A DNA stretch of 64,000 nucleotides, from the NCBI GenBank assembly GCA_029245345.1, contig JAQWPM010000021.1, positions 310,001 to 374,000 on the forward strand, written 5' to 3'. The translations under genes were made by a program, and so were the position numbers. Shown piece after piece: positions 6,218 through 56,337 of this stretch; the first letter of the stretch is position 1; each line of letters starts with the position of its first letter. The notes below the pieces were generated by a model that was given only the letters and a program-made list of their open reading frames with translations, ran no database searches and had not been told where the DNA came from. The stretch is from Longimicrobiales bacterium (GTDB taxonomy: Bacteria; Gemmatimonadota; Gemmatimonadetes; Longimicrobiales; Gaopeijiaceae).

Positions 6218-7822
6218 CTACTCCTCTTCCTCCTCGAGTTCATACTTGGAGATCTTGCGGTAGAGCGTCCGCTCACCGATCCCCAACAACTCAGCCGCCT
6301 TGCGACGGTTTCCGTTCACGGAAGCAAGCGCCGCTATAATGGCCTGCTTCTCCATCTCGTCCATCGTCATGCCCGGTCGGAAAATGACAACGTCATCGCG
6401 GTGCTCAATCGGATGGGCCTCCGCGAACACCGCTTCTTCGACCTCCTCTTCGGAGCGGAGAGAGAACGCCCCGATTTCGATCTCTCCCGACCTCGGTGCC
6501 TCCACCTCCATCCGACCCAGAACAGACTGACCCGGGAGGGATACCCCCTGACCTCGCCGATAGACATCGAACTCGTTTTTTAGGTCTTCCATGTCTACGC
6601 GGAGGTCGACGAGCGTGCGGAACACGAACTCGAGCTCCGGCCGCAAGTCGCTCCCCGAGCCAGCATTCCCACCGCCTCTGCTGGGGATCGGAACCGGGAA
6701 CAGCGAGGCGCCACGTCCTGCGCGCACGTCTTCGGGGATGTCCTCGGGCCGAATCATGCGGCCGGGAGACAACACAACCATCGACTCAACCAAGTTCCTC
6801 AACTCTCGCACGTTGCCCGGCCACGCATAGTTGACCAAGAGCTCCATCGCTTCCGCTGAGATGCCCGGGAAGTCGCGGTCATGCGTCGTCGATACCTCCT
6901 GGACAAACGCCCCCACCAAAAGAGCGACGTCATCTCTCCGGTCCCGCAAAGCAGGGAGATGGATACTCAGGACGTTGAGGCGGAAGTATAGGTCGCGCCT
7001 GAACTCACCGATCGCGACGAGCTGCCGTAAGTCCTGGTTCGTGGCCGCCACGATTCGGACGTCCACCTTGATGCTCTTCTCCCCACCCACGCGGTGGAAC
7101 TCACGCTGCTCGAGTACGCGCAGCAACTTGGTCTGCGTCGACAGGGGCATCTCTCCGATCTCGTCGAGAAAGATGGTCCCCCCGTGCGACAGTTCGAACA
7201 GTCCCTTACGTGCGTCGATGGCACCGGTAAACGCTCCCTTTTCATGCCCAAACAGCTCGGACTCGAGTAGGGTGTCGGACAGTGCCGCAACGTTCACAGC
7301 GATGAACGGCTTGTGCCGGCGCGAGGAGAGAGCGTGGATGCCACGGGCGACCAATTCCTTTCCGGTACCCGATTCACCGGTGACCAAGACCGTCGACATC
7401 ACCGGGGCGATTTGCACGACCCTCTCGAGCACCAGCCGCATTTCGTCGGTCTCACCGATGATGCCGGTCAGACGTTGGAGTCGCCCCATCTCGATGACCC
7501 GGCTTCCAACCAAGACGATGTCATCAACAGGAGTCCCTTTCCCGAAGACCTCATCAAAACCCGGTCGGAGAGCCGGCGAGAGCGACTGTTCAGAAGCGAT
7601 GGCGAACACGGGTACATGCAGCTGCTCCCTAGCCTGCCGGACCAATGGATCGCTGGCTTCCGCGCCTCCTGTGAGCACGAGAAGGACAGCTCCTTCATCT
7701 GGGGTCAGTTCTTCCTTGGGGGTGACCAGGTCCGTACTGTATCCAGCTTCTTTGAATCCCGCGCGCAACCGCCCAGCCATGGGTAGCTCGTGGGTGGAGA
7801 TGAGTACGCGGTCGTCCTTCAT
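6218..7822 (-). CDS. Sigma-54-dependent transcriptional activator with degenerate receiver-like N-terminus
   Basis: This is a bacterial enhancer-binding protein that remodels sigma-54 RNA polymerase. The AAA+ domain has Walker A GESGTGKE (149-156), the sigma-54 contact loop GAFTGA (196-201) and Walker [11 protein letters not shown] (214-223). A Fis-type helix-turn-helix lies at about 488-525. The N-terminal ~110 residues look receiver-like, but the expected phospho-Asp position reads LLVLTGG, so phosphorylation there is unlikely. Residues 370-485 form an unusual linker containing one predicted helix. The start ATG overlaps the mogA stop by 4 bp. The acidic C-terminal EEEE tail is odd but short. 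Its target promoter is not obvious nearby. Confidence 0.93.
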
Positions 7823-28158: not shown

Positions 28159-28880
28159 CGGATCTGCCGCGCGAGGCTCACCCAACGGGTCCAGTCGCCC
28201 CCGCCCTGCGACTTCATGACGATGCTCACCCCCAACCCGGCTCCACCAGTCCGGATCCCACTTTCCGGCGTAGACAGCGCGTTGCTCGTGAGCGGTTGTC
28301 GTCCACCTCGTCCGCGACGATAGCGCAGGGCTCCATCTGCGATGTGATAACTCCCCGACTCGAACAGACGGACCGCAACGAGCCCCGAATCCAAGACGCC
28401 CTCAACCGCCCACTGCTGAGCGGACCACCCCGACGGGCTAACTCCTAAACGCCACGAACAACTCGCACCGGGCCCCCAACGTTCGAGTGCCCTGACGTCC
28501 GTCTCTCCACTCTCGTAGACAAGCAGCACCGAGTCTTTTTCGGGATCAGGGTCCCGCCCTCCCCTGTATGTCACATCGAGCCGACCCGTTGTGATCAGAC
28601 ATGGAAACGCGACACCCCGGTATGCTCGGAGCACGATCGAATCCGCATCATGGACCATCCAATCCTCTCCCGGATGGCCTTTCGACAGCTCCGCCCTAAG
28701 AACCCATCGAACAATCCTGACGGTCTTCAATGCATCGGCGCGCTCAAGTAGGCCTTGGTGCAGCGTGTGCCCTCGGGCCAGGGCACCCAAAGACATCTGA
28801 ACGAGGAGGAGCCCCAACACCAACGTCACGATCGCCTCAATAAGCGTCCCACCTCTCATCTCCTTGGTGTGCCCGATCAT
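28155..28880 (-). CDS. PilW-like minor prepilin
   Basis: This 241-residue protein opens with a prepilin-like leader, MRGGTLIEAIVTLVLGLLLV, with Glu at the +5-like position. The cleavage-site residue after Gly is Gly instead of the usual Phe. A long globular C-terminal domain follows (two cysteines, many beta-strand-like segments). It sits between the PilV-like and PilX-like genes, overlapping each by 4 bp, which is the common minor-pilin order fimT-pilV-pilW-pilX. A role in priming or in the tip of the pilus is known for such proteins. The specific assignment to PilW is positional. Confidence 0.7.
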   Translation of the reverse strand: MIGHTKEMRGGTLIEAIVTLVLGLLLVQMSLGALARGHTLHQGLLERADALKTVRIVRWVLRAELSKGHPGEDWMVHDADSIVLRAYRGVAFPCLITTGRLDVTYRGGRDPDPEKDSVLLVYESGETDVRALERWGPGASCSWRLGVSPSGWSAQQWAVEGVLDSGLVAVRLFESGSYHIADGALRYRRGRGGRQPLTSNALSTPESGIRTGGAGLGVSIVMKSQGGGDWTRWVSLARQIR

Positions 28881-29206
28881 CCTGTCACCAATCTCCGGGT
28901 CACGATGTAGCTAATTGTGTCGCCCAAATGAGAAATCACTGCCACGCTGACCCGCCCATCCTCGGTGACATCCAACTGCAACTGCCCGAGGTCGAGCACG
29001 CGTGTCTCGGCCCCAGCGCTAGGAAAGCCTCCGATTGAGTCGAGAACATCAAGGGTCGCAGATGTCGCATCCTCGACTTCGATCGCTCGCCGAAGCTCCT
29101 TCGTCGCAACGACGAACATCGTTGCGACCCCAAGAAAGCCGACCTCAAAGATCAGAACACCGACGACGACCTCGACGAGCGTAAAGCCACGCTTCACCAG
29201 CGTCAT
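28877..29206 (-). CDS. PilV-like minor prepilin
   Basis: A compact 109-residue prepilin. The leader MTLVKRGFTLVEVVVGVLI has the Gly-Phe site and Glu5, followed by GFLGVATMFVVATKEL, a pattern typical of PilV. The globular part is very small, about 65 residues, ending in a beta hairpin. It overlaps the FimT-like gene upstream and the PilW-like gene downstream by 4 bp each, so the three are translated as a coupled set. Processing by a prepilin peptidase is expected, but no pilD gene lies in this window. Confidence 0.8.
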   Translation of the reverse strand: MTLVKRGFTLVEVVVGVLIFEVGFLGVATMFVVATKELRRAIEVEDATSATLDVLDSIGGFPSAGAETRVLDLGQLQLDVTEDGRVSVAVISHLGDTISYIVTRRLVTG

Positions 29207-29628
29207 TCGCGGCGGACCCTTCCAAAACTTGAGATCACCACTCGGAGCTGTGCGCTCCCACTTTCGAGGATGACCGTTCGACTCGCGAGCCGTCCCAGGC
29301 CGAGGGCGTCAAAGACGATTCGCGCTGCAGGTCGGCCGCCCCCCAGTCGCATGGTCGCGCCAAACGATCGCGCCAGGTCGACCTCGTTGACGATGGAGTC
29401 CCCGTGGACGATCCGCACCCATTGGGGAGACTCAAGGTGGACCGAAGCCCCACCCTGACCAACGCCCATCGACCGGGCTGTGGCGATTGAGGCGATCACC
29501 GACTCTCTTGCCGCGGCTGCGGAGGCATTGTCCCGATATCGACGGGCTGCGGGGGCCAATGCAGAGCCGCTCATTGCGAGCAGCGCCAAGACGATGGCCA
29601 ACTCGATTAGCGTATGTCCCTTGGTCAT
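29203..29628 (-). CDS. FimT/GspH-like minor prepilin
   Basis: A 141-residue prepilin with leader MTKGHTLIELAIVLALLAM. Cleavage would be after Gly4 with His instead of Phe at +1. The helix is followed by RESVIASIATARSMGVGQGG and a beta-rich tail ending in VVISSFGRVRRE, a pattern close to GspH/FimT proteins (ending in a glycine-arginine strand). FimT has been linked to DNA binding during transformation in other bacteria, which is relevant because comEA is in this window. It begins 15 nt after a terminator hairpin, so its expression may be reduced relative to the pilins. Confidence 0.78.
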   Translation of the reverse strand: MTKGHTLIELAIVLALLAMSGSALAPAARRYRDNASAAAARESVIASIATARSMGVGQGGASVHLESPQWVRIVHGDSIVNEVDLARSFGATMRLGGGRPAARIVFDALGLGRLASRTVILESGSAQLRVVISSFGRVRRE

Positions 29629-29642
29629 GCCACGAAAATTGT

Positions 29643-29659
29643 TCGCCCCAGCGGGGCGA
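29643..29659 (-). terminator. Terminator between the short pilin and the minor pilins
   Basis: A perfect 7-bp GC-rich stem (29643-29649 with 29653-29659) with a 3-nt loop is followed on the minus strand by ACAATTTTCG. It lies 22 bp after the short pilin stop. Partial termination here would let the abundant pilins exceed the minor pilins, a usual stoichiometry in pilus operons. Confidence 0.6.
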
Positions 29660-29681
29660 CGGCATGGCTCTGCGGGACGTC

Positions 29682-29924
29682 TTAGTCGATCCCGGAGTCC
29701 GTGAACGACAGAAGCGATGTCGTGGTCGTGTAGGCGTACTCGTCCGCGCAGTAGATCTCCTGCCGCGAAGCCAGGTTCTTGATATCAGACTTCATGGCGG
29801 CGAAGTACGCCTTCTCGCGAGTCCCAGAGAACTTGGGAATGGCGATCGCCGCCAAGAGCCCGATGATCACCACTACCATCAGCGACTCGATCAGTGTAAA
29901 ACCGTCCCGCGCTGTGCGATCCAT
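29682..29924 (-). CDS. pilA: Short type IV pilin (80 residues), paralogue of the adjacent PilA
   Basis: The leader MDRTARDGFTLIESLMVVVI gives a 73-residue mature pilin starting at Phe. The long N-terminal helix is followed by YFAAMKSDIKNLASRQEIYC and a Thr-rich tail ending LLSFTDSGID. The sequence follows the neighbouring full-length pilin closely and stops where that protein begins its globular C-terminal domain. The start at 29924 is set by the prepilin leader; an upstream extension to 30014 has no pilin feature. Layout and size resemble the short PilA-N of Geobacter. It could be a working short pilin or a decayed duplicate. The intact reading frame and AGGGTGG ahead of the ATG favour the former. 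Confidence 0.8.
   Translation of the reverse strand: MDRTARDGFTLIESLMVVVIIGLLAAIAIPKFSGTREKAYFAAMKSDIKNLASRQEIYCADEYAYTTTTSLLSFTDSGID
29701..29903. repeat. Direct repeat copy 1 (5' part of short pilin gene)
   Basis: This segment matches 30246-30448 without gaps. By hand I count about 20 differences in 203 positions, so close to 90 percent identity, ending sharply at the point where the short pilin ends. It indicates a recent tandem duplication or gene conversion between the two pilin genes. Confidence 0.85.
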
Positions 29925-29983
29925 AGAAAGCCACCCTGGAGGCTGCTCGGGGAGCGATCGGCGCGAACATCCCACCAGTGAAG

Positions 29984-30009
29984 CGACCCGGGCCATGCGG
30001 CCCGGGTCG
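29984..30009 (-). terminator. Strong hairpin between the two pilin genes
   Basis: A perfect 11-bp stem (29984-29994 with 29999-30009) with a 4-nt loop, extremely GC-rich. No T-tract follows on the minus strand (CTTCACTGG), so it may act as an mRNA-stabilising 3' structure or a processing boundary for the upstream pilin message more than as a classical terminator. Confidence 0.55.
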
Positions 30010-30067
30010 TTCACTAGCAGCTACTCTGTCACACCCTCCTGGAAGGATGCAATCTGCATCAGCGAAC

Positions 30068-30463
30068 TTAGCTGGTGCAGGCAACCTCACCCGGCGCAGT
30101 AGCCGTGGTGCTGCCGACGGTCGGCGTAGCAGCCGTTCCGTAGTAGATCACGCAGCCTTCAGCGGTGCCAAGGGCGGCGTGAACCGCACTAGCCGACCAG
30201 CCCGAGCTCGTAGCGGCGGACGCGACCGTCACACCGTCGGAGTTGGTGAACGACAGAAGCGTCGTCGTGGTCGTGTAAGAGTACTCGTCCGCGTAGTAGA
30301 TCTCCTGCTGCGAAGCCAGGTTCTTGATATCGGACTTCATGGCGGCGAAGTACGCCTTCTCGCGAGTCGCGGAGAACTTCGGAATGGCGATGGCCGCCAG
30401 GATCCCGATGATCACAACTACGATCAGGAGCTCGATGAGGGTAAAACCCTTGTTGTCTCGCAT
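30068..30463 (-). CDS. pilA: Major type IV pilin PilA
   Basis: This is the probable major structural pilin, 131 residues. The leader MRDNKGFTLIELLIVVVIIG is canonical, with Gly6-Phe7 cleavage and Glu5 of the mature chain. The helix continues through FSATREKAYFAAMKSDIKN and gives way to a Ser/Thr/Ala-rich globular domain. Two cysteines near the C-terminus (EGCVIYY and EVACTS) could close the usual disulfide loop. The Ser/Thr-rich tail would offer O-glycosylation sites. Start 30463 has GGAG at a suitable distance. A sigma-54 promoter lies about 55 bp upstream. It is followed by a hairpin and then the short paralogue. Confidence 0.93.
   Translation of the reverse strand: MRDNKGFTLIELLIVVVIIGILAAIAIPKFSATREKAYFAAMKSDIKNLASQQEIYYADEYSYTTTTTLLSFTNSDGVTVASAATSSGWSASAVHAALGTAEGCVIYYGTAATPTVGSTTATAPGEVACTS
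30246..30448. repeat. Direct repeat copy 2 (5' part of major pilin gene)
   Basis: Partner of 29701-29903, covering the leader, helix and first part of the globular region of the major pilin. Divergence is mostly at third codon positions. Confidence 0.85.
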
Positions 30464-35295: not shown

Positions 35296-36666
35296 TCACT
35301 CCGCGATTCCATACCGATTGAGCTTCCGATACAGAGTGGACGGATCAATCCCGAGCACCTCTGCCGCACGAGACTTGTTGCCGCCCTCCGCCTGCAAGAC
35401 CCACAGAATGTAGGCGCGCTCAATCACTTCCATCGTTGGGTTATCTGCAATCGGCTCTGCAGCCAGACGTGTCGGCGGCGCCTCTCGGACCCGCTCAGGC
35501 AATGAATCGCGAGTGACCGAACTGCCCGTCGCGACCACCGCCGCTCGCTCGAGTGCATTCTCGAGTTCACGCACGTTCCCCGGCCAGCCGTATTCTACGA
35601 GTGCGTCCATGGCTGCGTCCGAAATGTCCATGCTCTGATCGGCCCCATCCGACTCGGCTCGGGAGTCGAGGAAGTAGCGCGCAAGCAGAGGAATGTCCTC
35701 CTTCCTCTCCCTCAGCTGAGGAAGCCGCAGCTGGATGACGTTGAGTCGATAGTAGAGGTCACTGCGGAAGTCCCCTCGCTTGATTCCCTCTTCCAGATCG
35801 CGGTTCGTGGCCGCGATGATACGGGCGTGAACCGGGACCGGCTTCGTCGCACCTACCGGAATCACCTCTCGTTCCTGAAGGGCCCGGAGGAGTTTGACCT
35901 GAGTCGCTGGGCTCGTTTCTCCGATTTCGTCCAGCAAAAACGTACCTCCGGCCGCTGCAACCAAAAGACCATCCTTGTCTTTCACCGCTCCCGTAAACGA
36001 ACCCTTCACGTGGCCGAAGAGTTCGCTCTCGAGGAGACCCTCGGGAAGCGCTCCGCAGTTGATCGACAGGAACGGGCCTTCGGTGCGCTCCGATAGCTCG
36101 TGGATGTAGCGGGCGACCACTTCCTTCCCCGTGCCGCTCGCGCCCGACAAAAGAACGGTTGAGTCCGTGGATGCGACGGTCTCGGCCAGCTTCAGTGCCG
36201 CCACAAAATTCGGCGCGACACCGATGGGCCTGCCTGCCGGCCGGCCTTTCCCCGTCCGAATCTCCTTCTTGAGACGCTTGTTTTCGACACGAAGCTGTCG
36301 GGTCTCCGCCGCACGCCTGCAAATAGCAAGCAACTCCTCGTTGGCGAACGGCTTCTGCAAGTAGTAATAGGCTCCCTCGTTCACCGCGCGCACCGCCGAC
36401 TGAAGAGACGCCTGTGCAGTCATAAGGATGACGGACATCTCCGGATCGACCTCGTGCGCCCGAGCCAGCACCTCGAGGCCCGTCGCACCGGGCATCCTGA
36501 TGTCTGTGAGGACGATGTCCGGAAGCTCCTGGTCGAGGGCATCCAGAGCCTTGGACCCAGAATCGGCTACGGCGACCTGGTATCCCTGCCCCCTGAACAA
36601 GATGGACAGCGTCTCGAGGATCGCGGTCTCGTCGTCCACGAGTAGAATCTTCACTGGATTTTTCAT
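35296..36666 (-). CDS. pilR: NtrC-family sigma-54 response regulator, PilR-like
   Basis: A complete response regulator of 456 residues. The receiver has Asp11/Asp12, phospho-acceptor Asp55 (DIVLTDIRMPG) and Lys105. The AAA+ domain has Walker A GASGTGKE (175-182) and the sigma-54 contact loop GSFTGA (222-227), where Ser replaces the commoner Ala. The Fis-type HTH ends the protein (SRAAEVLGIDPSTLYRKL). The start overlaps the sensor-kinase stop by 4 bp, so the pair is one two-component system. The sigma-54 promoter before pilA, in the same locus, is the natural target. Confidence 0.9.
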   Translation of the reverse strand: MKNPVKILLVDDETAILETLSILFRGQGYQVAVADSGSKALDALDQELPDIVLTDIRMPGATGLEVLARAHEVDPEMSVILMTAQASLQSAVRAVNEGAYYYLQKPFANEELLAICRRAAETRQLRVENKRLKKEIRTGKGRPAGRPIGVAPNFVAALKLAETVASTDSTVLLSGASGTGKEVVARYIHELSERTEGPFLSINCGALPEGLLESELFGHVKGSFTGAVKDKDGLLVAAAGGTFLLDEIGETSPATQVKLLRALQEREVIPVGATKPVPVHARIIAATNRDLEEGIKRGDFRSDLYYRLNVIQLRLPQLRERKEDIPLLARYFLDSRAESDGADQSMDISDAAMDALVEYGWPGNVRELENALERAAVVATGSSVTRDSLPERVREAPPTRLAAEPIADNPTMEVIERAYILWVLQAEGGNKSRAAEVLGIDPSTLYRKLNRYGIAE

Positions 36667-38345
36667 GCTCCGCCCTCCGCGGTATCACCGGGAAGCCCAG
36701 GGAGATAGATCAAGAAATGCGCACCGCCCTCGGGTGCTCGCTCCACTAGCGTCACTCCTTGGTGGGCTTCAACCGCACGGTGCACCACGGCGAGCCCAAG
36801 CCCGCTGCCCGAGTCCCGGGTCGTAAAGAAGGGATCGAAAATTCGCGCAGCGACCTCGGGATCGACGCCTGGGCCACTATCCCGAACGCTGAGGCTTCGG
36901 GGGTGCGCGATATCAACCCCCCTTGGGCGGACAGGCACAGTCACTTCGGCTGCCGCGACCACTACAGTTCCACCCTGCCCCGCCGACTGTGCCGCATTCA
37001 GCAACAGATTGAATAGGGCCTGGTGAAGCAGGTCTCGGTCCGCCTCGACCCGCACTGGCGTATCGGGCACATCCATGGACAGCGATACGTTCTCGAGATC
37101 TGGGTGCTGCCTAGCAAGCGCCACACAGTGGCGAATCAAATCCCCCAGATCGACGTCCTCGCGTGCTCCAAACTTCATGACCGAGTAATCCAAGAACTCG
37201 GAAAGCAGTCGACTCAGTCGATCTGATTCGGTCAGGACCAGACGTTCCAGCGTCCCTCGATCCTCGGGTGAAATGGTCCGGCCGCTCAGCTGCTCAACAG
37301 AACTTCGGATCGACGCGAGCGGGTTCTTAATCTCGTGGGCCAACGACGCCGACAGAGCCGCAACCACCTCAAGTCGTTCAGCTCTGAAATTCAGCTCGTC
37401 GATGCGCTCCAGGTCAGTGATGTCCTGGAAGATCGCGGTGGCCGAGTCGGACTCCGCGTCGGCCCTCGGGAGTACCGTGGTGCTGACCCCAAGGCGGATC
37501 CGCTTTCCATCGGGGAGTGTCGCGGTGGTCCTGAATCGGGCTACAGGTCTCCCGTCGCGCACCGAGCCCTCCAACACGCCACCCAAGCCGGGTGCGACCG
37601 TCTCGACATTTTCGAGAATGGGTTCCCCAAGAACATCCCGCAGCGGGAGCCCCAGCAGTGCCTCGGCAGCTACGTTGGCGTAGACGAGCCGGCCCTCACC
37701 ATCCACGGTGACGACACCGGTCGCGAGGGTGCCGAGGATGTCGCCAGTATCGAGTCGGAGCTGATGCAGCTCGGACGAGACCTCCCCGAGGGTGGCTCCG
37801 GCCTGCCGGAGACGATCTCCCAGAACCCCGGTGAGGAGTGCGACGATCGTGAATAAGCCGATCTGCGCGGCGACCTCCGGGTTGAAAGTGCTCTGGAATC
37901 CCCATACGAGATCGGCAAAATAGGCGATGCTGGCCAGTCCGCCGATGAGCACCCCGCCCGGAAGCGGAAGAAGCAGTGCGCCCGCACTTATCACCAGGAT
38001 GTAGACTGGCGCGAAATTACTGTCCGGCCCCTGGGTGATATGGACGATCCCGGTCACCAGCGCGACGTCCAGGATCACCTGCGCGTACATGAAATTGTCG
38101 CTCGGTTTGCGACCCAGAAAATGGGTGAACCAGAACGAAGACGCCGTAACCGCCAGGGCGACAAGAAACATGACCGTTGCAACGAGGGTCGCTTCAGGAT
38201 CGACCGAAAGCCAACGGACGAAGGCAGCAACCAGAATGCCCGCGAGCAGTGTGAGTCGCCCGAGGTAGAGCCAACGAAGTAGGGCTCGGCGACCCAATTG
38301 TAGTTGGGGGCCCGACGGAGCCGGGGTCACAGCCGAATCAGCCAC
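36663..38345 (-). CDS. pilS: Membrane sensor histidine kinase, PilS-like
   Basis: The 560-residue kinase has about six membrane helices in the first 175 residues, a PAS domain (about 200-310), a DHp helix with His337 (SASLAHEIKNPLASI) and an ATP-binding domain (about 440-550, with DSGPGV and a G-rich loop GSGLGLAVV). Few residues lie outside the membrane before the PAS domain, as in PilS, which senses unassembled pilin through its membrane part. It precedes pilR with a 4-bp overlap. Start at 38345 gives a plausible cytoplasmic N-terminus. Confidence 0.9.
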   Translation of the reverse strand: MADSAVTPAPSGPQLQLGRRALLRWLYLGRLTLLAGILVAAFVRWLSVDPEATLVATVMFLVALAVTASSFWFTHFLGRKPSDNFMYAQVILDVALVTGIVHITQGPDSNFAPVYILVISAGALLLPLPGGVLIGGLASIAYFADLVWGFQSTFNPEVAAQIGLFTIVALLTGVLGDRLRQAGATLGEVSSELHQLRLDTGDILGTLATGVVTVDGEGRLVYANVAAEALLGLPLRDVLGEPILENVETVAPGLGGVLEGSVRDGRPVARFRTTATLPDGKRIRLGVSTTVLPRADAESDSATAIFQDITDLERIDELNFRAERLEVVAALSASLAHEIKNPLASIRSSVEQLSGRTISPEDRGTLERLVLTESDRLSRLLSEFLDYSVMKFGAREDVDLGDLIRHCVALARQHPDLENVSLSMDVPDTPVRVEADRDLLHQALFNLLLNAAQSAGQGGTVVVAAAEVTVPVRPRGVDIAHPRSLSVRDSGPGVDPEVAARIFDPFFTTRDSGSGLGLAVVHRAVEAHQGVTLVERAPEGGAHFLIYLPGLPGDTAEGGA

Positions 38346-38387
38346 GATGCCAGTCTCAGGTCACAGGATCCAACGGAGTCTTAGTGT

Positions 38388-38412
38388 CCCCGCTACAGCC
38401 ATAGTAGCGGGG
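38388..38412 (-). terminator. Hairpin after the receiver-DHp gene
   Basis: A perfect 9-bp GC-rich stem (38388-38396 with 38404-38412) with a 7-nt loop lies 65 bp after the stop of the receiver-DHp gene and 43 bp before pilS. The T-tract on the minus strand is missing (ACACTAAG), so it is only a probable terminator. A second, imperfect hairpin lies at about 38417-38451. Confidence 0.45.
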
Positions 38413-38477
38413 CTTCGCATTCTGCAACACCCGTGGGGTGGCATAATGCGAGCCCGCGTGGCCGGCGCCCGTATCAG

Positions 38478-39020
38478 TCAATCCTCTACGAGCCGGAGGT
38501 GTTTTGAGTCGACGATCATGTCGCGCATGCGGCGAAGCTGCGCCTGAGTAACCTCGAGAGCCTCCCGGACCTCTGGGTCTTCGATGTCTAACAGGAGCAG
38601 TTGAACTTCGGCCAGAGCGGACGTCAGCGGATTGTTAAGGTCGTGTCGCACACGGGAGATCTCTGTGAGAACACCACGGAGCTCCAGCATCAGCCCCGGC
38701 CGATCGTTCGAAGCAGACGCAAAATCGGCGACGTCGGTCGCTGCGTGGCGACGGCCGAAGCCAACCGTACGGATCCGTCGGTCCTCAGCATCCACGATCC
38801 CGAGCACCCACGAGGGGTCGGCCGGCGCGATGAGCGCTGCAAGTACCATGACCTCGCTGTCCGGCCGCGAAGCGCGATCAAGGAGAACGAGCCCCGGGTC
38901 ACGGGACTCGAGCTGCCCCAATTCGTGGGCATCCGCCAACACCGTAGGCGGGTTCTCCGGCCGGCTCAGCGCCGCGAAAACGTCCGCCTGATCCGAAATT
39001 AAATATACAGGCCGTTGCAT
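38478..39020 (-). CDS. Orphan receiver-like plus DHp (histidine phosphotransfer) protein without ATPase domain
   Basis: I know no named family for this 180-residue protein. Its N-terminal half resembles a receiver: VYLISDQADVF (Asp10) and GLVLLDRASRP (Asp48 at the phospho-acceptor place). The C-terminal half is a histidine-kinase DHp helical hairpin with His126 in SRVRHDLNNPLTSALAEVQ. The chain ends at residue 180, so no catalytic ATP-binding domain is present. I start at 39020, where AGGGAG precedes the ATG at 9 nt; longer frames to 39083 would overlap the divergent gene. A phosphotransfer role, comparable in principle to Spo0B or ChpT, is inference. It is upstream of pilS on the same strand. 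Confidence 0.7.
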   Translation of the reverse strand: MQRPVYLISDQADVFAALSRPENPPTVLADAHELGQLESRDPGLVLLDRASRPDSEVMVLAALIAPADPSWVLGIVDAEDRRIRTVGFGRRHAATDVADFASASNDRPGLMLELRGVLTEISRVRHDLNNPLTSALAEVQLLLLDIEDPEVREALEVTQAQLRRMRDMIVDSKHLRLVED

Positions 39021-39063: not shown

Positions 39064-41118
39064 ATGACCACATTGTCGGCCATGCCCGCTCATAGGATAA
39101 CTCCCGCGCGGATCGTCGGCTGGGCTCTGCTCGCGCTTTCGGCCCTGCCGCTACACCGCCTCCTGGCCCCTGAGCGCACCGGGTCCGCGGGTATTTCGAC
39201 CCGGGCGAGTGCTGAAGCAGCGTGGAATTCCGGCTGGTTGGGATCGCTAATCGTGATCGTGTTGGCGGCGATCATCTCCAGAGCCACACCGACCGACCGC
39301 CTGAAGACTGCCACGAACGCGGCCGTCTCCGCGCTCGCCGCCGTCCCGGGGCGTAACTTCGCCGTGCTCATCGGGATGGGCACCGCCGGGCTGGCCGCAC
39401 TCACTGCCGTCTTCGTCCATGGGGCTGAGCCAACCTCCGTCGACGAACTCGTGCAACTTCTCCACGCACGCGCGATATCGGGTGCTGGACTGACCCTGCC
39501 ACTGGAGAACGCCACCGCGAGCTGGGCCGTTCAAAACGGGGTATTTACCGAGTCCGGATGGGCCTCCATCTATCCTCCTCTCCATACCGTCCTCTTGGCA
39601 GGCGCCCTGCTGGTGGGCGTTCCGTGGCTGCTCGGCCCCTTGGCTATCGGCTTAGCCACCGCAGCCTTCTCGTTGGGGTTAGACCGGGTCTTGGACGACA
39701 CCCGCCTCTCGCGTGCGTCGGCGACGCTCCTCGCCGTTTGTCCGTTCTGGCTCCTTTTGGGCAGCACATACTTGAGCCACTCGACCGCCGCCGCCGGGGT
39801 GTGCCTGGTCTTCTGGGCTGCCGCGCGGGCGCGCACCCCAAGCTTGCGGTCATTTCTGCTACTCGGAGCGGCGGTCGGCTTCACAATTTGTGTCAGGCCA
39901 TGGACGGGACTCGTGCTCTCTGCAGCCATCGTTTCCACAGTCACCGTCCAACCCCTTTGGCCTCGGACTACAACACGGGATCGCGTCACCGCGGCCACGT
40001 CCTTCGTTCTGGGCGGCGTGCCGTTCGCCGGATTCCTATTCTGGTGGAATACGAGCCTCTTCGGTGCTCCCACGCGCTTGGGGTACTCCGCCGCGTTCGG
40101 GCCGTCTCACGGCCTTGGCTTTCATACGGATCCGTGGGGTAACGTATACGGCATGCTTGAGGCGGTCGCCTACTCGGGCGCTGACCTCATCCAGCTCAGC
40201 GCCCACCTCATGGAGTCGCCTCTCCCTGCCCTGTTGGTCGTCGGGGCAGCGCTCGCGGCTGGGGCGCGATACCGGGGCATGTGGACGCTGATTGCGTGGG
40301 GGGGCGCAGGCGTCCTCGGGAACGCGCTCTATTGGCACCACGGCGTACACATGGGTCCACGCATGTTGTTTGAAACGACCCCAGCGTGGATTGCAGCAGC
40401 GGTTTGCGGCGGCCACGCACTCGCGACATCGTCGCCCTTCCGGACTCGCTGGGTGCGAAACGTCGCAACATGGGCCCTCCTTCTCACTCTGGTTGGATCG
40501 GTGGTGCTCGCCCCAGGCCTCATCTTGGCACAAAAACGATCCCAAGAAGACAGCCCCAAGCTTGGGGCCCACGCTCTGCCTCCACCTCGGGCCGTGGTGT
40601 TCGTGCATGGGAGTTGGGCATCTCGCGTGTCGGCTCGACTGGCCGCTTCGGGAATGCGTAGAGATTCGATCGAAACAGCGCTCCGCCGGAATGACATATG
40701 TAAGGTCGACACGTTCAGCCGGACCGAAATCACGACACGCACGACGACCGAGATGGACCTAGACGCACAGCCAGGCTATCCGCCGAATTTGGCCGTCCGA
40801 GCCCTCTCTCCTGGCAACGTCGTACGGATAGAGCCTTCCCGTCCGCTCACCTCCGCGTGCGCGAGGGAGGCCCGATCGGATCGTTTCGGATCTATCGAAC
40901 TCGAGTCTCTGCTGTGGCGACTACCGCCACTGCCGGGCGCTGACATTATCCTGGCCCGAGACATGGGCCCGGCCGGAAACGTCCCGGTACTCGAGCTCTA
41001 CGAATACACACCCTACGTGTACATCGACGGGCCGAATGGACTGCGGCTCCTAGCCTACGATGTGGGTATGGAATTGGCTTGGGGGGGGCCGACACTTCCT
41101 ACCGGGGGCGCGAAATAG
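39064..41118 (+). CDS. Multispanning GT-C type membrane protein (ArnT/PMT-like), putative
   Basis: A 684-residue integral membrane protein with ten or more predicted helices and a periplasmic C-terminal domain of about 170 residues. The first loop contains SVDELVQLLHARAISGAG, with an acidic residue pair in the place used by ArnT and protein-mannosyltransferase relatives, and IYPPLHTVLLAGALLVGVP follows as in that superfamily. Which glycan it handles is unknown. The ATG at 39064 is preferred over the GTG at 39040 because AAAGGTGG lies just before it. It is divergent from the receiver-DHp gene with 43 bp between starts, so the two may share a control region. Confidence 0.65.
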   Translation: MTTLSAMPAHRITPARIVGWALLALSALPLHRLLAPERTGSAGISTRASAEAAWNSGWLGSLIVIVLAAIISRATPTDRLKTATNAAVSALAAVPGRNFAVLIGMGTAGLAALTAVFVHGAEPTSVDELVQLLHARAISGAGLTLPLENATASWAVQNGVFTESGWASIYPPLHTVLLAGALLVGVPWLLGPLAIGLATAAFSLGLDRVLDDTRLSRASATLLAVCPFWLLLGSTYLSHSTAAAGVCLVFWAAARARTPSLRSFLLLGAAVGFTICVRPWTGLVLSAAIVSTVTVQPLWPRTTTRDRVTAATSFVLGGVPFAGFLFWWNTSLFGAPTRLGYSAAFGPSHGLGFHTDPWGNVYGMLEAVAYSGADLIQLSAHLMESPLPALLVVGAALAAGARYRGMWTLIAWGGAGVLGNALYWHHGVHMGPRMLFETTPAWIAAAVCGGHALATSSPFRTRWVRNVATWALLLTLVGSVVLAPGLILAQKRSQEDSPKLGAHALPPPRAVVFVHGSWASRVSARLAASGMRRDSIETALRRNDICKVDTFSRTEITTRTTTEMDLDAQPGYPPNLAVRALSPGNVVRIEPSRPLTSACAREARSDRFGSIELESLLWRLPPLPGADIILARDMGPAGNVPVLELYEYTPYVYIDGPNGLRLLAYDVGMELAWGGPTLPTGGAK

Positions 41119-54612: not shown

Positions 54613-56337
54613 CTAGTCATCCGAAGCGGTGGTTTCTTTGATCAACTCTTCCATTGTGGTGACGCCCCTTTCGACCTTCTTCATGCCGTCTTCACGAAGC
54701 GTCAGCATGCCCTCTGACTGCGCGAGCAGCCGGATGTCGTCCGTCCCCATCTCCTTCATGATGGCCTTCCGAAGAGGCGAGGACATGATCATGACCTCGT
54801 AGAAGCCACAGCGGCCCTTGTATCCAATGCCGCCGCACTCCTTGCAGCCCTCACCTCTCATGAAGGTCTGCTTCTTCGCCCAATCCAACGGGACCTTGGC
54901 CGACTCGAAGTAGTCGTCGTCGTACGTGACCTCGACCCTACAGCTCTTGCAGATTCTCCGAGCGAGTCGCTGAGCCGTCAGGAGGTTCAGCGCGGACGCA
55001 ACGTTGAAGGGTTCAAGACCCATATCAATGAGCCGCGTTATGGTGGACGGCGTGTCGTTCGTGTGAAGCGTCGACAACACCAAGTGACCCGTCAGGGCGG
55101 CCTTAATTGCGATGCCGCCCGTCTCCAGGTCACGAATCTCACCCAGCATGATGATGTTCGGATCTTGCCGCAGGAACGCCTTGAGCGCCGCGGCAAACGT
55201 CATGCCGACCTGGTCACGCACCAACACCTGATTGATCCCGTAGAGGTTGAACTCGACCGGATCCTCAGCGGTCATGATGTTCGTGTCGATCGTGTTGATC
55301 TGTGACATCGCCGAGTACAGCGTGGTCGTCTTGCCGGAACCCGTAGGGCCGGTCACGAGGACCATGCCGTACGGCCGGCCAATCGCCCACAGGAAGTCTT
55401 CCTCAGCCTTTTTTTCGAAGCCGAAGGTGGTCAGATCGAAGGTCAGGTTCCCCTTATCGAGAATACGGAGAACGATCTTCTCACCGAAAATCACGGGCAA
55501 GACCGAGACGCGGAAGTCGACCACCTTGTTCTTCATCTTCAGCTTGATGCGCCCGTCCTGAGGCACCCGCCGCTCAGCGATGTTGAGATCCGCGAGAATC
55601 TTCACACGTGATGTCAGAGCCGCCTTCATCTTGTAGGGAGGCTTCATGACCTCCATCAAGGAACCATCAACCCGGTACCGGATTCGGATCTCTGACTCGA
55701 ACGGCTCAATGTGAATATCGGATACGCCCTTCAGAACCGCGTCGGTCAAAAGGCCGTTGATGAACTTTACGACCGGGGCAGAGTCGATTTCCGCCGCGAG
55801 GGCATTGTACGCCTCGTCGCCCTCCTCTTCCTCGATGATCTCGACGTCCTCATCACCCCAGGTGTCGAGCAGGTTGGCCATCTCCTCGTCATCTGATTTC
55901 CCGAAGTACTCCTCAAGGTGCTTCTTGAGCGTGTACTCTCCTACGATGACCGGCTCGATTTCGAGCTTCGTGATGAACTTCAAGTCATCGATGGCCGAGA
56001 AGTCGGTGGGGTTCGCCATCGCCACCGTAAGCATCCGGCCCACGCGCCGGAGCGGAAGCACCATGTGCTTCAGAGCCACATCGCCCGGGATGAGCTTCAG
56101 GATCTTCTCGTCAACCGTGACCTTGTCGAGGTCCACGGCCGGGACGCGGTACTGCTTGGAGAGCATCCGAGTCAGTTCTTCTTCCTGAACAAACCCGAGA
56201 TGCACTAATGCGTACCCGATGCGGTGGCCCTCGGTCTTCGCTACTGCCAGGCTCTCTCTCAGCTGTTCTTCAGTGATCAGTCCTTCACGGACGAACAAGT
56301 CGCCAAGACGGATCTCTTGAGCGCCCTTTGCTGCCAT
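54613..56337 (-). CDS. pilB: Type IV pilus assembly ATPase PilB
   Basis: PilB (GspE family) drives pilin polymerisation. The N-terminal MshEN-like domain (about 1-150) is followed by the ATPase domain with Walker A GPTGSGKTTT, Walker B in IIMLGEIRDLET, and the cysteine-rich zinc motif CKSC...CKECGG...C near residues 455-500. The ATG at 56337 is preferred over a TTG at 56343 because AGGAA lies at a suitable distance. The gene order pilB-pilT-pilC differs from the pilM-Q locus, 30 kb away. The 157-bp gap upstream should contain the promoter, but I see only weak boxes. Confidence 0.95.
   Translation of the reverse strand: MAAKGAQEIRLGDLFVREGLITEEQLRESLAVAKTEGHRIGYALVHLGFVQEEELTRMLSKQYRVPAVDLDKVTVDEKILKLIPGDVALKHMVLPLRRVGRMLTVAMANPTDFSAIDDLKFITKLEIEPVIVGEYTLKKHLEEYFGKSDDEEMANLLDTWGDEDVEIIEEEEGDEAYNALAAEIDSAPVVKFINGLLTDAVLKGVSDIHIEPFESEIRIRYRVDGSLMEVMKPPYKMKAALTSRVKILADLNIAERRVPQDGRIKLKMKNKVVDFRVSVLPVIFGEKIVLRILDKGNLTFDLTTFGFEKKAEEDFLWAIGRPYGMVLVTGPTGSGKTTTLYSAMSQINTIDTNIMTAEDPVEFNLYGINQVLVRDQVGMTFAAALKAFLRQDPNIIMLGEIRDLETGGIAIKAALTGHLVLSTLHTNDTPSTITRLIDMGLEPFNVASALNLLTAQRLARRICKSCRVEVTYDDDYFESAKVPLDWAKKQTFMRGEGCKECGGIGYKGRCGFYEVMIMSSPLRKAIMKEMGTDDIRLLAQSEGMLTLREDGMKKVERGVTTMEELIKETTASDD

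Follow-up and report, generated by a model that had tools for sequence, protein, structure and literature searches.

The gene at positions 38478-39020 of the 64,000-nucleotide stretch of Longimicrobiales contig JAQWPM010000021.1 analysed here (hereafter the window) encodes a 180-residue protein in which a degenerate, pseudo-receiver-like domain precedes a DHp hairpin, with no ATPase domain. We see about an even chance that this protein is a stand-alone DHp (histidine phosphotransfer) protein working on the receiver of a response regulator, most likely PilR. The order on the minus strand is the gene for the 180-residue protein, then an intact pilS, then pilR:

38478..39020, minus strand: gene of the pseudo-receiver-DHp protein, 180 aa (ORF, Pfam, AlphaFold2 model, in-genome HisKA search, family profile search)
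38691..39020, minus strand: N-terminal receiver-like domain, residues 1-110, without alpha-4 and with aspartates not conserved (models, structure comparison, alignment)
38499..38681, minus strand: DHp two-helix hairpin, residues 114-174, motif RHDLNNPL (HisKA match, model, alignment)
38643..38645, minus strand: codon of the presumed phospho-accepting His126 (sequence; invariant in 23 of 23 rows)
38346..38477, minus strand: 132-bp gap between the gene and pilS, encoding no ATPase domain (ORFs, HATPase_c scan, RNA folding)
36663..38345, minus strand: pilS, with 6TM_PilS, PAS, HisKA and HATPase_c all present and intact (Pfam)
35296..36666, minus strand: pilR, with receiver, sigma-54 interaction domain and HTH_8 (Pfam)

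The start codon is the ATG at 39020, which is the start that aligns with the MxxPxYL of the homologues; starting instead at the ATG at 39083, in the same frame, would lengthen the protein to 201 aa. The gap before pilS is foldable as RNA (z -2.33), but a scan for terminator-like sites on the strand of the gene gave none there. From a reading of its ORFs, the window carries what we take to be a type IV pilus cluster, whose members include pilin-like proteins encoded at 28877-30463 and a PilB-like ATPase encoded at 54613-56337.

A DHp hairpin without an ATPase domain

A Pfam scan of the 180-residue protein returned HisKA alone (residues 121-171; E 8.2e-9, 35.8 bits against a cut-off of 26.9), with neither a Response_reg nor a HATPase match. 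Both the score, which exceeds the curated threshold, and the H-[DE]-x-x-[NT] box (HDLNN) assign this segment to HisKA/DHp (PF00512). The protein is not a histidine kinase, which would have HATPase_c in the same chain: this domain is absent from the protein, and none is encoded downstream before pilS. The window's genome has 10 HisKA places, nine of them with HATPase_c in the same open frame, and 38478-39020 is the sole exception (E 7.8e-9 in the in-genome search). The initial annotation had seen no ATPase domain further downstream in 38346-38477, and this is borne out: the interval is a gap followed by pilS, and none of the 16 HATPase_c places in the genome falls within it. A frameshifted or split kinase gene is ruled out, as there is no HATPase nearby and pilS starts after the 132 bp.

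The AlphaFold2 model (23-row alignment; mean pLDDT 90.1) consists of a receiver-like domain, whose elements fall within residues 5-102, and a pair of long helices (114-145 and 149-174). Compared with solved DHp domains, the hairpin matches that of GacS (7n0e_A; Z 9.0, rmsd 1.2 Å, 59 aligned residues), and the DHp domains of CpxA, ERS1 and ShkA are also among its structural matches, in a comparison where helical hairpins of unrelated proteins score equally high. R125, H126, D127, N129, N130, L132, T133, E138 and Q140 are invariant in the 23 aligned sequences; among the rows of this alignment (A3), L103 belongs to family f9 rather than f1, and L091 does not adjoin pilS. The HisKA match, the model and the position of the His126 codon uphold the earlier description of a DHp hairpin containing RHDLNNPL at which the chain ends. 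The expectation that homologues would keep the histidine held for all 23 aligned sequences and failed at two of the four loci of the more distant f9, where Gln or Arg takes its place.

The N-terminal domain, a probable degenerate receiver

Residues 1-110 are best read as a degenerate domain of the pseudo-receiver type. Modelled alone (pLDDT 89.6), it aligns mostly with receivers and pseudo-receivers at Z 6.4-7.5 (3kht, 7.5; 2qxy, 7.4; CikA 2j48, 6.5), and two designed Rossmann folds outscore these (Z 8.8 and 8.1). In the model beta-4 joins beta-5 directly and alpha-4 is missing; receivers with missing helices are known, an example in the available text of PMC9981736 being the unfolded alpha-4 segment in the receiver of the CckA hybrid kinase. 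The domain does not qualify as a receiver (PF00072), and a working receiver was rejected: there is no Response_reg match, a profile of the N-terminal part compared with seven real receivers reached 3.3% probability, and Asp is found at the Asp10 and Asp48 columns in just 2/23 and 4/23 rows, respectively. The receiver-like fold and the two aspartates named in the initial annotation are thus present in the window protein, whereas the lack of conservation speaks against a functional receiver.

In one relative (L091) the N-terminus matches Response_reg below threshold (E 0.0036) and ntrC at E 1.1e-4, a hint from sequence that the domain descended from a receiver. Since Trp71 is found in 21/23 rows, as is a Ser at position 87, where the window protein has Gly, the domain keeps some role. 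Elsewhere in the window, the N-terminus of a 534-aa protein (6218-7822, minus strand) reads like another degenerate receiver.

Conservation and linkage to pilS

A profile search of the 121 genomes of the window genome's family gave 28 places at E <= 1e-10. Clear homologues account for 26 of these (E <= 1.2e-33); of the remaining two, the one in G008 is a sensor-kinase frame interrupted by the end of its contig, and the one in G145 is a truncated copy. The initial annotation had proposed a profile search for the same short architecture beside pilS in related genomes, and it was indeed found there: 24 of the 26 homologues, comprising 13 from a first survey (the window included) plus 7 and 4, immediately precede pilS and share its orientation. 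The exceptions are one 40 bp after a GAF histidine kinase (G312/L091) and one between a receiver-only protein and a receiver-HD protein (G019). The end of the gene and the start of pilS overlap by 4-8 bp in three genomes, compared with the 132-bp separation in the window. A single-sequence search of the genome contigs found no homologue, and an alignment-based search found 26 loci, a count that includes L106, whose frame runs into ATPase and receiver sequence, and the truncated copy L102; at L093 the end of the contig leaves only part of the sequence. L102 (the same place as L165, in G145) has a LysM-like gene on one side and, on the other, the glycosyltransferase gene found after pilR in the window, and pilS and pilR were not called there.

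This linkage would suit a protein that pairs with the DHp domain of PilS, either as a RetS-like inhibitor or as a split kinase borrowing the ATPase domain of PilS, and the three overlapping gene pairs count in the same direction. The RetS-GacS pair offers a precedent for regulation by DHp-DHp contact, and the GacS DHp that resembles the hairpin by rmsd comes from the structure of its complex with RetS. Unlike the 180-residue protein, RetS combines a kinase region with sensor and receiver domains. We hold such pairing to be unlikely: the hairpin does not group with the PilS DHp in the tree described below, no kinase was called near the gene in f9 or in the Acidobacteriota locus L105, and heterodimerisation between different kinases is described as rare in the available text of PMC8971529.

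In the first survey, 23 genomes of the family had pilS; the gene is upstream of it in 13 and absent in nine; the remaining genome (G008) has only 310 bp upstream of pilS and was given no absence score. Because nine genomes have pilS without the gene, PilSR does not need it. One of these nine (G033) still has a helix-2 remnant upstream of pilS. This remnant, the truncated copy in G145/L102 and the absence of the gene from most family genomes (28/121 matched) would be in keeping with the leftover of a degraded hybrid kinase that has no present function. That explanation is very improbable, in view of the 26 intact homologues, their invariant active-site residues and the signs of purifying constraint: dN is below dS in every homologue pair with a finite dS, many dS values lying near saturation and one comparison giving an infinite dS, and the difference is strongest in the DHp part (L094/L095: dN 0.02 and dS 0.52 in the DHp part, 0.09 and 0.39 in the N-terminal part). 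At the level of sequence, the in-genome HisKA match, dN below dS and the conserved gene order confirm that the gene is real, beyond chance.

ATPase-less DHp relatives beyond the family

Proteins with a DHp hairpin and no ATPase domain were also found outside the family. In the same order, f2 comprises DHp-only proteins of 72-84 aa at seven loci (L045, L046, L047, L048, L049, L050 and L051), with a profile 43% identical to that of the window family (hhalign probability 99.3%). The gene directly after them is, from our reading of its sequence, presumably gcvH-like; no two-component gene was recognised near the f2 loci, and such a neighbour is an odd partner for a signalling hairpin. In the same class, DHp-only microproteins of about 60 aa were found in 45 f6/f10 genomes (295 genomes searched, 59 matched overall). 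The H-D-x-x-N motif is invariant in these microproteins (for example L125:3835-4023). At L125 an M50 peptidase gene lies upstream, and the L125/L127 pair has dN 0.09 and dS 1.21.

The receiver-like-DHp proteins of f9 are encoded upstream of a response regulator at four loci. The regulator is a receiver-HD protein at L115 (Pfam) and begins with a receiver at the others (tblastn); at L115 and L118 the regulator gene overlaps that of the DHp protein by 8 bp. The histidine is kept in L115 and L116 and replaced by Gln in L118 and Arg in L117. In G193 (L140:3635-4681), a 348-aa protein with receiver, DHp and a further tail, and no HATPase match, is encoded directly after a receiver-HD regulator and is possibly a relay within one chain. 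In two Acidobacteriota records (L104 and L105), frames of 121 and 150 aa have HisKA as their sole above-threshold match, and that of L105 overlaps the start of an NtrC-type regulator gene.

In a tree of 54 DHp domains, 45 ATPase-less domains stand apart from the nine kinase DHps of the window's genome with support of 95/91; the tree rests on 65 columns, on rows picked by similarity (five of the seven f2 rows, two having been lost, and nine f6/f10 microproteins) and on kinases from the window's own genome only. Within that sampling, an origin of the hairpin as a duplicate of the PilS DHp is not supported. Tentatively, these proteins may form a broad ATPase-less DHp family in Gemmatimonadota and some Acidobacteriota, ranging from microproteins of about 60 aa to the pseudo-receiver-DHp form; as a minimal class of histidine-phosphotransfer proteins, it would stand apart from HPt, Spo0B and ChpT and would have been recruited repeatedly into PilSR, receiver-HD, NtrC-type, gcvH-like and M50-peptidase contexts.

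Comparison with known phosphotransferases and pseudo-receivers

Spo0B, ChpT and PhyT are described as degenerated histidine kinases that act as phosphotransferases (PMC5898713, available text). Spo0B and ChpT, dimeric histidine phosphotransferases of the DHp type, resemble the 180-residue protein in having a kinase-derived, His-bearing hairpin and in lacking ATP-driven activity. According to the portion of PMC9981736 available, ChpT has a second domain that is ATPase-like but functionally degenerate. The 180-residue protein, in contrast, has no ATPase-like remnant and carries a pseudo-receiver in front instead; its chain ends after the hairpin, where a protein of the Spo0B/ChpT type has an ATPase-like second domain. 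The family profile gave one chance-level match against PDB sequences (E 0.57), Foldseek found no match with E <= 0.001 among solved structures, and Spo0B and ChpT were not among the structural matches listed, which is uninformative on membership. PhyT of Sphingomonas is a kinase-derived phosphotransferase encoded beside the regulator that it acts on (PMC5898713, as above). It differs in that it is anchored in the membrane, is of the HisKA_2/HWE type with the motif HRxxN, and retains a degenerate ATPase domain.

In the available text of PMC12632262, the pseudo-receivers of ShkA and CikA inhibit autophosphorylation; both are receiver-like domains without a phospho-accepting Asp that act on a DHp in the same protein, and the CikA domain is among the structural matches to the N-terminal model. 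These pseudo-receivers sit in full hybrid kinases, unlike that of the 180-residue chain, which has no ATPase domain.

Proposed function

The best reading is a phosphotransferase or phosphatase that is presumably dimeric and regulated by its own pseudo-receiver. The interpretation given in the initial annotation is supported in part, as regards a free-standing DHp whose His motif is intact and whose linkage to PilS-PilR is firm. Two hairpins would pair into a four-helix homodimer. Having no ATPase domain, the chain cannot phosphorylate His126 itself, so the phosphate would be supplied by PilR~P or another phosphorylated regulator, as in Spo0B, ChpT and PhyT, or from PilS in trans; His126 would then pass it on or let it be lost, with Asn130 possibly providing phosphatase ability. 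The pseudo-receiver could be a phosphorylation-independent switch or a dimer support that gates the DHp, comparable to those of ShkA and CikA. In the simplest circuit, the DHp dimer would draw phosphate from PilR or return it, with the pseudo-receiver as gate or dimer clamp. The net effect would be that PilR~P is buffered, drained or cross-connected, and the pilus genes thereby tuned.

A receiver is favoured as the partner because the H-D-x-x-N motif is kept and because a response regulator is present where no kinase was called nearby. ATPase-less relatives adjoin receiver-HD regulators in f9, G019 and G193 and an NtrC-type regulator in L105, and in two of these lineages (f9 and L105) the regulator follows directly after the gene with no kinase called in the stretch read, which argues for a response regulator rather than PilS. 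Against a regulator partner we count the f2 and f6/f10 relatives, whose neighbours are not two-component genes. A further point counted against the best reading comes from EnvZ: in mammalian cells its DHp by itself had no phosphatase activity, whereas kinase-dead variants fused to a zipper did (PMC8971529, available text); the zipper result would fit, by analogy, an N-terminal domain that keeps the hairpins together.

For HisKA domains, kinase activity is tied to the acidic residue that follows the His, and phosphatase activity to an Asn or Thr at +4 (PMC3510030, available text). The protein might be a dedicated PilR~P phosphatase, in which the DHp dimer docks PilR, Asn130 positions a water molecule, and His126 helps in docking or catalysis and does not carry phosphate. 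We judge this rather improbable, though the invariance of Asn130 in 23 rows and the f9 loci without His fit a His-independent role. Against it, Ser stands at +4 in two f9 loci and one f2 row, and H126 and D127 are both invariant; the acidic residue equivalent to D127 matters in CrdS for the kinase reaction and not the phosphatase reaction, in the same text. As the His is not essential for the phosphatase activity of HisKA proteins (PMC12632262, available text), its retention argues for the carrying of phosphate. The joint conservation of His, acidic residue and Asn suggests that phosphate is carried on His126 and is also removable; with His lost from two of four f9 loci, not all relatives would be able to carry it.

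Stand-alone DHp phosphotransferases are already known from Spo0B, ChpT and PhyT. What is new, relative to the open-licence literature, is the ATPase-free pseudo-receiver-DHp form at a fixed place beside pilSR: neither an ATPase-less DHp protein of this layout nor one beside PilS was found in open-licence PMC articles. If our reading is true, selection has retained a DHp hairpin alone, without an ATPase-like remnant, as a signalling component in its own right, and the protein offers a testable case of how a pseudo-receiver may control a DHp in a chain that lacks a kinase. PilSR pilus control in the lineage of the window would then have an extra phosphate-handling component.
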